Positions 7,549 through 41,133 of a stretch of 64,000 nucleotides of DNA are shown one piece after another (position 1 is the stretch's first letter; every line of letters starts with the position of its first letter). This DNA is from Halorussus vallis. Lineage in GTDB: Archaea; Halobacteriota; Halobacteria; Halobacteriales; Haladaptataceae. The position numbers were made by a program, and so were the translations under genes. The notes under the pieces are model-generated. The model saw only the letters and a program-made list of their open reading frames with translations. It was not told the origin of the DNA and made no database searches. Location of the stretch: the NCBI RefSeq assembly GCF_024138165.1, contig NZ_CP100000.1, positions 558,001-622,000 of the forward strand. Reading direction: 5' to 3'.

Positions 7549-7662
7549 GTCGGCGAATCGGGGCGCCGAGCATCTCCCCCCGCACACGATTTTTGCGGTA
7601 GTCCGCCGGACGAGGGTCGGTCCCGCGGGCGGAAGTCAGCTTCCGCGGATGGACGCCGCATT

Positions 7663-8502
7663 CTATAGTTCGAGGGCCTTCGGATACGCCTCGGGGACGC
7701 CGAACCCGGCCTCCCGCAGGGTCGCCCCGGCGTTCGCCAGGTTCTCCACCCAGCGCTCGCCGCGGTCGGTCGGACCGACCGCGGCGTAGCGAATCGGCGC
7801 GCCCCTGACGGTGCGCTCGGGGAGTTCGACGCTCGCGGCGGCGTAGCGGTCCTCGAACGCGGGGTTCGAGAAGTCGATTTCGTCCGGGAGTTCGAGGTAC
7901 GGCAGGTCGTGTTCGACCGCCATGTTCCGGTAGGCGAACGCGGCGTCGATGCCGCCGGCTTCGAGCGTCCGGAGGAGCGCAGTCTCGGGGAACAGCTTCG
8001 TCCGCGCGAGCGCCGCCGCGGCGTCGACGCCGTCGGCGAGGCGGAGCGCCATCACCGTCCGGTAGCCCAGCGGGTCGCGGGCCGGGTCGGTCCGGCCCAC
8101 CGCGAGCGAGTCGTCGCCGACCACCGCCCGCCAGTCGGCCTTCTCCGAGACGGGCGAGTCGCGGCGATGGGCGACCACGAGCGCGTTCGTGGCGAAGCAG
8201 GTCGCTCGCTCGGCGAGACCCTCGAACAGCCGAGGGTCCGCGAGCGCGACGGCGTCGGGGTCGCGCAGGCCGTCTTCGAGCAGGCGGCGGCAGGCGACGC
8301 TCCCGTGGGCCTCGACGGTCGCGGTTCCGACCTTTTTGGCGACCGACTGGAGGCTCCCGGCGACGAGGACCGACGCCGGTTCGGCGGCGGAGTCGCCCGA
8401 CTCGCGCCGCTCGGAGCGGCGCGAACCGGCGAGAAGGGACCCGAACCCGCCGACGGCGACGACGCCGGCGGTGCGGCGGAGGAGCGAGCGACGCGTTGGC
8501 AC
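7663..8502 (-). CDS. Tat-exported molybdate/tungstate-type substrate-binding protein (orphan)
   Basis: A 279-residue protein starting at GTG with a twin-arginine-like signal (TRRSLLRRTAGVVAVGG). The mature part is a type II periplasmic-binding-protein fold of the ModA/WtpA group: LVAGSLQSVAKKV near the mature N-terminus, ATNALVVAHRRDSP in the middle, GRTDPARDPLGYRT as the ligand-loop stretch, and IDAAFAYRNMAVEH late. Such proteins capture molybdate or tungstate for an ABC importer. No permease or ATPase gene is adjacent on either side, so it must work with distant partners or has been separated from them. A 7-bp palindrome upstream may control it. Confidence 0.75.
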   Translation of the reverse strand: MPTRRSLLRRTAGVVAVGGFGSLLAGSRRSERRESGDSAAEPASVLVAGSLQSVAKKVGTATVEAHGSVACRRLLEDGLRDPDAVALADPRLFEGLAERATCFATNALVVAHRRDSPVSEKADWRAVVGDDSLAVGRTDPARDPLGYRTVMALRLADGVDAAAALARTKLFPETALLRTLEAGGIDAAFAYRNMAVEHDLPYLELPDEIDFSNPAFEDRYAAASVELPERTVRGAPIRYAAVGPTDRGERWVENLANAGATLREAGFGVPEAYPKALEL

Positions 8503-8538
8503 GACCGTAACGATAACAGTATTCGTGAAAACGGTATC

Positions 8539-8556
8539 GTAACTGGTTTCAGTTAC
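8539..8556. promoter_or_regulatory. Perfect inverted repeat upstream of binding-protein gene
   Basis: GTAACTG and CAGTTAC flank a GTTT spacer, 37-54 bp before the GTG start at 8502. A second imperfect pair (ACGATA at 8510-8515 and TATCGT at 8535-8540) lies between this palindrome and the gene. The region is the most AT-rich part of the gap, so an operator overlapping the promoter is plausible, perhaps for a metal or oxyanion regulator. This is inference only. Confidence 0.4.
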
Positions 8557-38894: not shown

Positions 38895-39605
38895 GTGGCT
38901 CCGCTCTCGGTCGCCGTCACGTCTTTTTCCGGCGACGACGAAGCGTCGTGCCTGCACGTCACCGCGCACCGAAGCTTCGGCGAACGGTACCCGGAGAACA
39001 CCGTCTGCGCCGCCTGGGAGGCGTCCGACCACGCCGACGCCGTGGAGGTCGACGTCCGGCGGTGCGGGTCGGGCGAACTCGTCGCCTCCCACTGGGACCA
39101 CGTCGGATTCGTCACCGACGGCGAGGGAGACATCGACGAACTGTCGGCGGCGGAACTCGCCGCGCTCGACGTCGGGGATTCGAGCTACGGGATTCCGCCG
39201 GTGACGGACGTGCTCGACGCGATTCCGCCCGAAGTCGGTGTCGTCCTCGACCTGAAGGAGCGCGGCGTCGCGGCGGACGTGGTGAACCTCGCCCGGCGCG
39301 TCCCGAACGACACTGTCGTCGCCTCGTTCCATCCCGACCCGCTCTGGCGGACCCGAATGTTCGACGAGTCGATTCCGGTGGCGTACAACTTCGACCTCCG
39401 TCCGGACTCGAACTTCGAAACCGCGGCCGCGCTCGACTGCGAGTACGCCTTCCCCCACTGGACGCTGTGCCTGGCGACCGACGTGGTCGAGCGCGCCCAC
39501 GACGCCGGTATGGCGGTACACGCGTGGCCGGTCGGGTCGCGGATGCTCGCGCGGGCGCTGAGTCGGGGCGGCGTCGACGGTGTGGTTGCAACCGAACCGC
39601 TGTGA
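38895..39605 (+). CDS. Glycerophosphodiester phosphodiesterase
   Basis: A 236-residue GDPD-type TIM barrel from a GTG start. The N-terminal catalytic strand is VTAHRSFGERYPENT (His-Arg of the active site), followed by AVEVDVRRCGSGELVASHW with the metal-binding Glu/Asp and second His, and the later VVLDLKE. The end DAGMAVHAWPVGSRM and GVDGVVATEPL is usual for the family. It should hydrolyse glycerophosphodiesters to sn-glycerol-3-phosphate (or the archaeal sn-1 form) and an alcohol. No signal peptide, so intracellular. Confidence 0.88.
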   Translation: MAPLSVAVTSFSGDDEASCLHVTAHRSFGERYPENTVCAAWEASDHADAVEVDVRRCGSGELVASHWDHVGFVTDGEGDIDELSAAELAALDVGDSSYGIPPVTDVLDAIPPEVGVVLDLKERGVAADVVNLARRVPNDTVVASFHPDPLWRTRMFDESIPVAYNFDLRPDSNFETAAALDCEYAFPHWTLCLATDVVERAHDAGMAVHAWPVGSRMLARALSRGGVDGVVATEPL

Positions 39606-39817
39606 ACGCTCCGCGGTGGCGCCGTTCCGAACGGACGGACGGTCCCATCCGTCCGGAGACGAGCGACAAAGCCGAGGGTGGCGAGAGCGACGGTACCGCG
39701 AACTCGACGTAATCGCCCGTTGTCGCGCACTCCATCCGCGGAACGCCGGCGTTTCGCACGCGAATCGGTCGATACCGGCGGCGAACGCGGGTCGTACCTC
39801 GCGGAACCGGAGTGAAC

Positions 39818-39842
39818 GGACGGCGCACTTTTCCCGCCGTCC
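39818..39842. promoter_or_regulatory. 8-bp inverted repeat upstream of TGRF-repeat gene
   Basis: GGACGGCG and CGCCGTCC flank a T-rich centre (CACTTTTCC) 17-41 bp before the ATG at 39859. The T-rich centre could serve as a weak TATA box, with the arms as operator halves. Confidence 0.35.
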
Positions 39843-39858
39843 GGGGTACGAAGGGCAG

Positions 39859-40476
39859 ATGAGCCGACGATACACCGCGGGCGGGGACCGGACCCCGCGA
39901 AATGACCGGGCGCGACGCCAGCGACGCAACTCCGCGACGGGTCGATTCGCTTCCGAGAACGACCAGCGCAGTGAGCGACGACGGCGGCACGGAAGCGACC
40001 GCACGCGGTCCCAAGGCGCTCCGAAGACGGAGCGAACTCGCGACGCCTCGCGGTCGGAGCGTCGCCGCGACACGTCCCGGTCGAGGCGGGCGCGACGCCA
40101 GCGACGCGACCCCGCGACGGGGCGGTTCGTCGCCGAACAGCCGGAATCGGAGAGCGGTCGACGCTATCAGTCTCAGCACTCTCGCTACCTGCGGCAGCGC
40201 GACCCTCGGACCGGCCAATTCGCCGCGAGGAGCCAGCGCCCCACCGGTCGAGCGAGGGCCGACCGGGAACCGACCGACCGAGGAGTCGGGTCGACTCACC
40301 ACCCGAGTCCGTCGGCCACTGCAGACCAACAGGGTCGACCCGACCAACGGGGGACCGGACAACAGCAACCCGACCAGCAGGGTCGGGACGACCAGCGGCC
40401 GACTCAGCGCCGGTACGGTCGGCGGCGCGAACGGCGACACCGCCAGCATCGACCCCCGAGCGAGCCGCGCCACTAA
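39859..40476 (+). CDS. Basic RxxDPxTGRF-repeat protein, disordered
   Basis: A 205-residue, strongly basic protein, opposite to the acidic norm of this genome. It has three copies of a short motif: RQRRNSATGRFASEN (from residue 27), RQRRDPATGRFVAEQ (about 91) and RQRDPRTGQFAAR (about 118). The first two are near-identical at DNA level with mostly synonymous third-base changes; the third is conserved only as protein, which supports this reading frame over others. The tail is Gln/Gly/Arg-rich. There are no membrane segments or cysteines. It may bind DNA, RNA or acidic proteins. Function unknown; existence likely but not certain. Confidence 0.6.
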   Translation: MSRRYTAGGDRTPRNDRARRQRRNSATGRFASENDQRSERRRRHGSDRTRSQGAPKTERTRDASRSERRRDTSRSRRARRQRRDPATGRFVAEQPESESGRRYQSQHSRYLRQRDPRTGQFAARSQRPTGRARADREPTDRGVGSTHHPSPSATADQQGRPDQRGTGQQQPDQQGRDDQRPTQRRYGRRRERRHRQHRPPSEPRH

Positions 40477-40507
40477 CCATTTAGCCGAAAACGTCGAACC
40501 CGCGGCC

Positions 40508-41014
40508 ATGGGGGAGAACGAAGACGACGTCTCGTGGCCGTCGCACGCGAGCCGCGTCCTGCTCGCGTACCTCAAGAACGGCGAGGAGGGCCTCTCGAAC
40601 GTGGCGGAGGACATCCACGGACGCACTCACGACCGGCCGGGGGAGAAGTTCGGCAAGAAGGAGGCGCTGTACCTGCCCCAGTCGCCGGTGCCGCCGAACC
40701 TGTGGCGCGAGTCCTGCGGCCGGTGTCGGTTCTGGCGCGAGGGGAGTCCCGGCGAGGGCGGCCGGTGCCACGTCGTCGGGAAGAAGGGCGACCGTTTCGG
40801 CGGCGAGCACATCCACCCACGCGGGTGGTGCAAACTCTGGGTCCCGCCGGAGGGCGAACCCGCGTTCGCGTGGCTGTTCGAGCAGTTGAACCCGACCGGC
40901 GCCGACCTCGTCCGCGGCGAGTACCACCGCCACCCGAACGAGGAAGCCGACCAGCAGACCATCGACGAGGCCGTCGAGGGGGTGTCGGCCGAGAGCGAGT
41001 CGGAGGCCGACTGA
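40508..41014 (+). CDS. Four-cysteine protein, HiPIP-like
   Basis: A 168-residue cytosolic protein. The central part reads RESCGRCRFWREG, GGRCHVVGKKG, and IHPRGWCKLWVPP: four cysteines spaced C-x2-C-x14-C-x20-C with a terminal I-x3-G-W-C-x2-W, close to the pattern of high-potential iron-sulfur proteins, which hold a [4Fe-4S] cluster. The spacing before the last cysteine is longer than in classical HiPIPs and no export signal is present. An N-terminal helical segment (HASRVLLAYLKNGEEGL) and acidic C-terminus flank it. A TATA-like CATTTAGCC lies about 28 bp upstream, giving it its own promoter. Zinc binding is the main alternative. Confidence 0.6.
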   Translation: MGENEDDVSWPSHASRVLLAYLKNGEEGLSNVAEDIHGRTHDRPGEKFGKKEALYLPQSPVPPNLWRESCGRCRFWREGSPGEGGRCHVVGKKGDRFGGEHIHPRGWCKLWVPPEGEPAFAWLFEQLNPTGADLVRGEYHRHPNEEADQQTIDEAVEGVSAESESEAD

Positions 41015-41133
41015 GAACCGGCAAACGACCACGGCCGAGCGCCCGAAACCGACCCCAACCGAACGCACGCGAACCGATTCCGACCGAGCGCCCGGCGATG
41101 GCGTGCCATCGCCGGGCGCTCCTCGTCGAGTGG

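Follow-up and report, generated by a model that had tools for sequence, protein, structure and literature searches.

High-potential iron-sulfur proteins (HiPIPs) are generally understood as exported carriers. A small gene in a 64,000-nucleotide stretch of the Halorussus vallis genome (contig NZ_CP100000.1, positions 558,001 to 622,000; hereafter the window) raises the question of whether a protein of this kind may also work inside an archaeal cell and, if so, with which partner.

Coding status and motif of the gene

The open reading frame runs from an ATG at position 40508 to a stop at 41014 and specifies an acidic product of 168 amino acids (pI ~5.1). Overlapping spurious ORFs are numerous in the region, which would fit a chance ORF in GC-rich DNA. 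The GC content by codon position (0.708/0.470/0.940) nevertheless argues against this and is like that of the GDPD, SSF-transporter and penicillin-amidase genes nearby. Extended upstream in the same frame (39902-40507), the profile flattens to 0.66/0.72/0.76. Comparison with the copy in a congener (genome G408) gave a dN of 0.139 and a dS of 0.552 over 151 codons (dN/dS ~0.25). As controls, we used alternative frames over 94-97 codons of the N-terminal stretch. Both remaining forward frames had dN near or above dS (0.230/0.245 and 0.287/0.135), and dN exceeded dS in two antisense frames. A third antisense frame had dN below dS (0.194/0.379), which counts against the coding test, yet this frame contains stops in both genomes. 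Given the third-position GC of 0.94 and the dN/dS ratio against the congener, the ORF is a real gene. The chance-ORF reading is already refuted by the existence of homologues in other genera and is further opposed by a Pfam match, and we give it practically no weight.

The ~41 nt preceding the ATG are similar and of equal length in G408 when compared by eye. They include a promoter-like box whose TTTA lies 25-28 nt 5' of the ATG and, 3' of the gene, an inverted repeat has the form of a terminator; both functions are suggested by sequence (Table 1). The gap between the GDPD gene and the HiPIP-like gene measures ~0.85 kb in H. vallis (window 39605-40465) and only ~0.1 kb in G408. Within this gap lies a frame rich in arginine (39859-40476, 57 R of 205), in which the pattern R-[ND]-[SP]-x-T-G-[RQ]-F recurs three times; we set this frame aside as a partner gene, its codon-position signal not being clear.

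Table 1. Positions in the window of the HiPIP-like gene, its parts and its flanking elements
Feature	Position	Strand	Basis
TTTA-containing box, promoter-like	40478..40487	+	common to G408, by eye; function inferred
HiPIP-like protein gene	40508..41014	+	translation, codon-position GC, dN/dS, Pfam PF01355, relatives
N-terminal conserved helical segment, residues 13-42	40544..40633	+	family alignment, predicted helix
HiPIP-like core, residues 47-111	40646..40840	+	Pfam 68-112, hhalign 41-113, viral-contig domain alignment
Cys70 codon, inferred cluster ligand 1	40715..40717	+	invariant in 5/5 family rows
Cys73 codon, inferred ligand 2	40724..40726	+	invariant in 5/5 family rows
Cys87 codon, inferred ligand 3	40766..40768	+	invariant in 5/5 family rows
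Cys108 codon, inferred ligand 4	40829..40831	+	invariant in 5/5 family rows
C-terminal conserved segment, residues 113-140, PPEGEPAFAWLFEQLNPTGADLVRGEYH, family-specific	40844..40927	+	family alignment
Perfect 17-nt inverted repeat, 2-nt loop, terminator-like	41086..41121	.	3' of gene; function inferred

The first-pass annotation of this DNA had described a four-cysteine pattern, C-x2-C...C...I-x3-G-W-C-x2-W, and the pattern is present as described. The cysteines are arranged as C70-x2-C73-x13-C87-x20-C108, with I102-x3-G106-W107-C108-x2-W111 around the last of them. Searched as C-x2-C...C...[LIVM]-x3-G-[YW]-C-x2-[FYW] in the open stretches of all six frames, it has a single occurrence in the window and none in 30 first-order Markov copies. 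The core is marked by K47-x2-K50-x4-Y55, C70, C73, C87, G106-W107-C108 and W111; its aromatic residues include Y55 before the first cysteine, F75 and W76 after the second and W107 before the fourth. All four cysteines and Y55 are invariant in the five family sequences.

Relation to the HiPIP superfamily

The Pfam HIPIP profile (PF01355) matches the window protein at 24.1 bits, only narrowly over the curated cut-off of 22, with residues 68-112 aligned to profile positions 29-66 of 66. When family members were scanned as domains, all five matched at E up to 1, scores over the cut-off being seen for the window protein and for P0004 (24.3). The earlier annotation had proposed HMM-HMM comparison as a check on the resemblance, and we aligned a profile of the five family sequences with one of 27 haloarchaeal HiPIP domains, hand-picked from 37 over-cut-off PF01355 loci with the window's own gene excluded. 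In hhalign this yielded a probability of 93.6 and a score of 44.9 over residues 41-113, in a register that aligns the tyrosine and all four cysteines. The best of 100 shuffles with the cysteines held fixed scored 29.6 and the best of 100 core-only shuffles scored 23.5, so that the profile similarity reaches beyond the cysteines. In a 13-row alignment that includes ten domains from viral contigs, K47, K50, Y55, V90, I102, P104 and W107 are invariant or nearly so (at least 90%), and the window segment K-F-G-K-K-E-A-L-Y aligns with viral-contig segments such as K-A-S-K-Q-E-A-S-Y. The larger size of the window core relative to the viral-contig domains results from insertions of ~5 to 8 residues.

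HiPIPs ranked first in sequence searches of the PDB but weakly, with E values of 0.24 to 1.2 (0.26 and 0.61 in a second search, where the unrelated FUS came next at 1.2), and the NCBIfam and PHROGs collections gave no match for the window protein. The strict HiPIP signature, taken here in the PROSITE form C-x(6,9)-[LIVM]-x(3)-G-[YW]-C-x(2)-[FYW], is broken by the C87-x14-I102 spacing, while its right-hand half fits. Structure prediction with AlphaFold gave a mean pLDDT of 37.7 and low core confidence from a 3-row alignment and a mean of 54.6 from the 13-row alignment, in which ten-residue blocks reach 37-55 over residues 51-120. The N-terminal helical segment proposed earlier is borne out as a probable helix at residues 13-42, with blocks at 63-81 over residues 11-50; this segment lies outside the haloarchaeal and viral HiPIP domains aligned here. 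A Foldseek search with the weak 13-row model returned no PDB match, a null result that the quality of the model makes little informative. Altogether, HiPIP homology is supported at the level of sequence, through the over-cut-off Pfam score, the profile-profile alignment and the K-x2-K-x4-Y and W-C elements common to the viral-contig domains. Because the C87-x14-I102 spacing falls outside the strict signature and no confident model was obtained, the window protein appears to be a divergent, elongated HiPIP-domain protein rather than a classical HiPIP.

Iro of Acidithiobacillus and PioC of Rhodopseudomonas resemble the window protein in their four cysteine ligands and aromatic residues, the key residues of Iro being four Cys, Tyr14, Phe30 and Tyr48, according to PMC10654088. 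That paper places both proteins in iron-oxidation chains and PioC in the periplasm. The spacing of Iro is C-x2-C-x8-C-x12-C, as against C-x2-C-x13-C-x20-C in the window protein.

The first-pass annotation had presented an unexported archaeal version with an N-terminal helical segment as new ground. That an archaeal HiPIP as such would be new is not supported: of 391 class genomes, 84 have PF01355 matches (H. vallis included), and a plasmid-borne relative of 60% identity, described below, is already annotated as a HiPIP. The profile also matched in Haloferax volcanii, one among 14 controls, and in 6 of the 28 genomes of the family; within the genus (18 genomes) it matched in the window's own alone. 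What is unusual is the existence of a rare HiPIP-type family without a visible signal peptide, not the archaeal occurrence. Like the window protein, the haloarchaeal PF01355 HiPIPs have four cysteines, the tyrosine (in most rows) and W/Y-C at the last ligand (27/27 rows). They differ in carrying an RR...A/S-G-C leader of the Tat-lipoprotein type, seen by eye at all 21 plus-strand loci other than the window's own, and in a C3-C4 spacing of 12 instead of 20, and their aligned domains have neither the N-terminal helix nor the C-terminal tail. A second, sub-cut-off PF01355 match in the H. vallis genome (L012, 16.9 bits) looks, by eye, like a cysteine protein of a different type. Among the class genomes, three loci (L013, L029, L037) carry a twin-arginine-type leader followed by a HiPIP domain fused to a NosL domain (PF05573), which hints at a connection with copper or denitrification enzymes. 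Four others (L031, L040, L041, L042) carry tandem HiPIP domains, the first with C-C-A-N-C (by eye; two stretches confirmed for L041).

We also found 14 HiPIP-like loci on IMG/VR viral contigs (L076-L089, including L081:3507-5153 and L082:2817-5441), ten of which were aligned, the four omitted being near-identical to rows used. These proteins share C-x2-C...C...W-C with the window protein and, in most cases, K-x2-K-x4-Y, and the small ones likewise have no visible signal peptide; they are unlike it in their minimal size and their C3-C4 spacing of 12. In one viral-contig frame a phage portal protein (PF06381, phrog_146) carries the motif at its C-terminal end, and in another frame the motif precedes a DUF2213 part. 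Across eight viral-contig frames, PF01355 scored over its cut-off in two and under it in one, with no match at E 0.01 in the portal and DUF2213 frames.

Family relatives, export and gene loss

Relatives that align along most of the protein are few, with three lineages in these searches. Those outside the genus are on the Halobaculum salinum plasmid NZ_CP058580 and in the metagenome-assembled genome QS_1_68_20, whose DNA is the same as that of G411 in the order search. The H. salinum protein, WP_179270771, is annotated as a high-potential iron-sulfur protein; it is ~60% identical to the window protein over 136 residues, has all four cysteines and, similarly, no visible signal peptide. The order search retrieved 4 of 392 genomes (H. 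vallis itself, G000, with G408, G405 and G411), and the class search 3 of 391 with the window protein and 1 of 391 with the family profile. In the profile searches of class and order, for which genomes were drawn evenly from the larger group, 9 candidates per genome were scored out of some 20 to 55 in the genomes listed. Weak class-search matches in G183 and G269 were unsupported by four family queries at E 0.01. Scanning of genome contigs gave 33 pattern matches and no relatives with the window protein alone and two loci with the family profile; of these, L055 (Phycisphaerae) was discarded because the match is short and runs antisense to a different gene, which by eye is an initiation-factor-3-like frame. 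Viral contigs yielded no relatives with either query, and none were found in phage records.

The first-pass annotation had also called the protein unexported, and here the sequence agrees. Neither a signal peptide nor a membrane segment is visible: on the Kyte-Doolittle scale, no 19-mer that begins within the first 60 residues averages more than 0.06. The N-terminus is not hydrophobic, and no export signal like that of a classical exported HiPIP can be seen in it. By eye, no signal peptide is visible in P0004 or in the stand-alone protein at L054. We consider the window protein to be soluble and probably cytosolic.

Among the 18 genomes of the genus, covered as part of the family search of 28, the gene is intact in H. 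vallis, broken in two and reduced to a remnant in one; the other 14 gave no hit at E 0.001. The G408 copy is frameshifted and the G405 copy has no 5' half and is also frameshifted, both shifts falling in the codons just before the fourth cysteine; G402 retains a 15-residue remnant. The orthologous GDPD locus could be located in nine congeners (L058-L066), and a trace of the gene was seen at three of them (L059 in G408, L061 in G405, L062 in G402). By eye, small deletions in two congeners (L051, ~7660-7680, minus strand; L052, ~8530-8550) lie at the same GC-rich palindromic spot before the fourth Cys codon. This shared spot reflects either a mutation hot spot or a sequencing artefact, and the G408 frameshift may be real or a sequencing error.

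As the gene is intact in 1 of 18 genus genomes only, its function is dispensable. The two frameshifts, the 5' truncation, the remnant and the 14 genomes without a match would all be expected if the gene were decaying and had no present function in this organism. Against this, the window copy is intact, its coding frame is constrained relative to G408 and the stretch before its start is common to both genomes. We regard decay as possible but doubtful; it is also compatible with the role that we favour below.

A dehydrogenase-type neighbour in two relatives and the proposed role

In both relatives outside the genus, the end of the gene and the beginning of the next one overlap, by 11 nt in H. 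salinum and 14 nt in QS_1_68_20; the window gene has no such overlap. The next gene encodes a second HiPIP-like domain followed by a propeller of the glucose/sorbosone-dehydrogenase type (GSDH; PF07995 at 109 bits in H. salinum). The two fusion proteins are 64% identical to each other, are 54% (H. salinum) and 48% (QS_1_68_20) identical to an enzyme of the H. vallis genome itself (L074) over some 400 residues, and have no visible signal peptide. Their best PDB matches, determined for the H. salinum protein, are hedgehog-interacting protein (E 7.6e-30), followed by soluble quinoprotein glucose dehydrogenase (E 8.6e-16). With the NCBIfam PQQ-enzyme model, whose cut-off is 434.55, the H. salinum protein reaches 84.5 bits and that of QS_1_68_20 68.6. 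The GSDH-type class of the fusions is therefore likely from their sequences, but their activity is putative, because hedgehog-interacting protein ranks first in the PDB and the PQQ score is far under the cut-off. On the plasmid, the 60-78 kb region around the H. salinum module also contains a second PQQ-type dehydrogenase, a plastocyanin/azurin family protein, a Rieske protein, formate dehydrogenase and nitrate and nitrite reductases.

The fused HiPIP-like domain keeps the four cysteines and has A-G-C at the last one, as opposed to W-C or Y-C in HiPIPs; the whole fused H. salinum protein has no PF01355 match at E up to 1. The absence of the aromatic residue before the fourth cysteine, together with the core insertions and the low AlphaFold confidence in the core, would be in keeping with a HiPIP-derived docking domain in which the cysteines form a structural metal site, holding zinc or a redox-inert cluster, without electron transfer. 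The stand-alone proteins, however, retain the Tyr, Phe/Trp and W-C positions that are tied to HiPIP stability and electron transfer in PMC10654088, and both outside relatives adjoin a dehydrogenase-type gene. We judge a purely structural site to be unlikely.

The two-gene HiPIP-like/GSDH module was encountered in H. salinum and QS_1_68_20, not in H. vallis. The neighbours tested in the window, which include NDK, an acetyltransferase, GDPD, an SSF transporter and a penicillin amidase, show no GSDH. A fused HiPIP-GSDH enzyme was not found in the H. vallis genome, where the family profile has one match. Three GSDH matches exist (L073, L074, L075), all far from the HiPIP-like gene; by eye L074 has a twin-arginine-type leader, L075 one of the same type at ~residues 60-85 of its frame and L073 a lipoprotein-type leader. 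Given this distance and these export-type leaders, no direct partner is apparent. That no oxidoreductase family occurs among the neighbours tested, that no signal peptide is visible and that extra conserved segments flank the core could also point to a cytosolic sensor of redox state or oxygen that is based on a HiPIP-like domain and uses the N-terminal helix and C-terminal tail for output. Pfam at E up to 10 gave no DNA-binding or signalling domain, though, and in the outside relatives the adjacent gene encodes an enzyme, which makes a sensor rather improbable.

The reading we prefer, with a probability of roughly 60%, is that the window protein is a cytosolic one-electron carrier of the HiPIP superfamily that stems from a dehydrogenase module and has been orphaned in H. 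vallis. In this reading the four cysteines would bind a single [4Fe-4S] cluster, with Tyr55, Phe75/Trp76, Trp107 and Trp111 as its shield, and the cluster would carry one electron at a time at positive potential (3+/2+); the potentials of known HiPIPs span about +50 to +500 mV (PMC7462912). Docking of the partner probably takes place on the family-specific N-terminal helix and C-terminal tail. In the two other haloarchaea that partner would be the product of the overlapping gene, with its HiPIP-like domain and quinoprotein-type propeller. Electrons from the substrate may move through the dehydrogenase and its fused HiPIP-like domain to the free HiPIP-like protein, which would act as mobile carrier. 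We describe the window protein as orphaned because the fused enzyme was not found in this organism, where the carrier may use another donor or be in slow loss. In our analysis the conserved neighbour and the fusion are the strongest argument for redox work; the strongest arguments against it are the missing partner here and the gene loss in congeners. It is tempting to speculate, as a tentative extension of the carrier reading, that haloarchaea have a cytosolic high-potential chain in which a sugar dehydrogenase of the quinoprotein type, equipped with a HiPIP-like domain, passes electrons to a free elongated carrier, and that the window protein is a surviving carrier rewired to another donor.

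Among the matches listed for open-licence literature on HiPIPs (in haloarchaea including Haloferax, the archaeal cytoplasm, fusions with PQQ dehydrogenases and phages) and on PQQ glucose dehydrogenase in haloarchaea, titles and abstract openings mention no cytosolic HiPIP-dehydrogenase module. The wider weight of the finding is limited by the rarity of the family. A cytosolic chain of the kind outlined above, if real, would have a HiPIP working within the cell instead of in its envelope. A conserved family that has no visible signal peptide and is paired with, and fused to, a quinoprotein-type dehydrogenase offers a concrete test of a high-potential [4Fe-4S] carrier at work inside the cell, and it suggests what might accept the electrons of a sugar dehydrogenase that is not exported.
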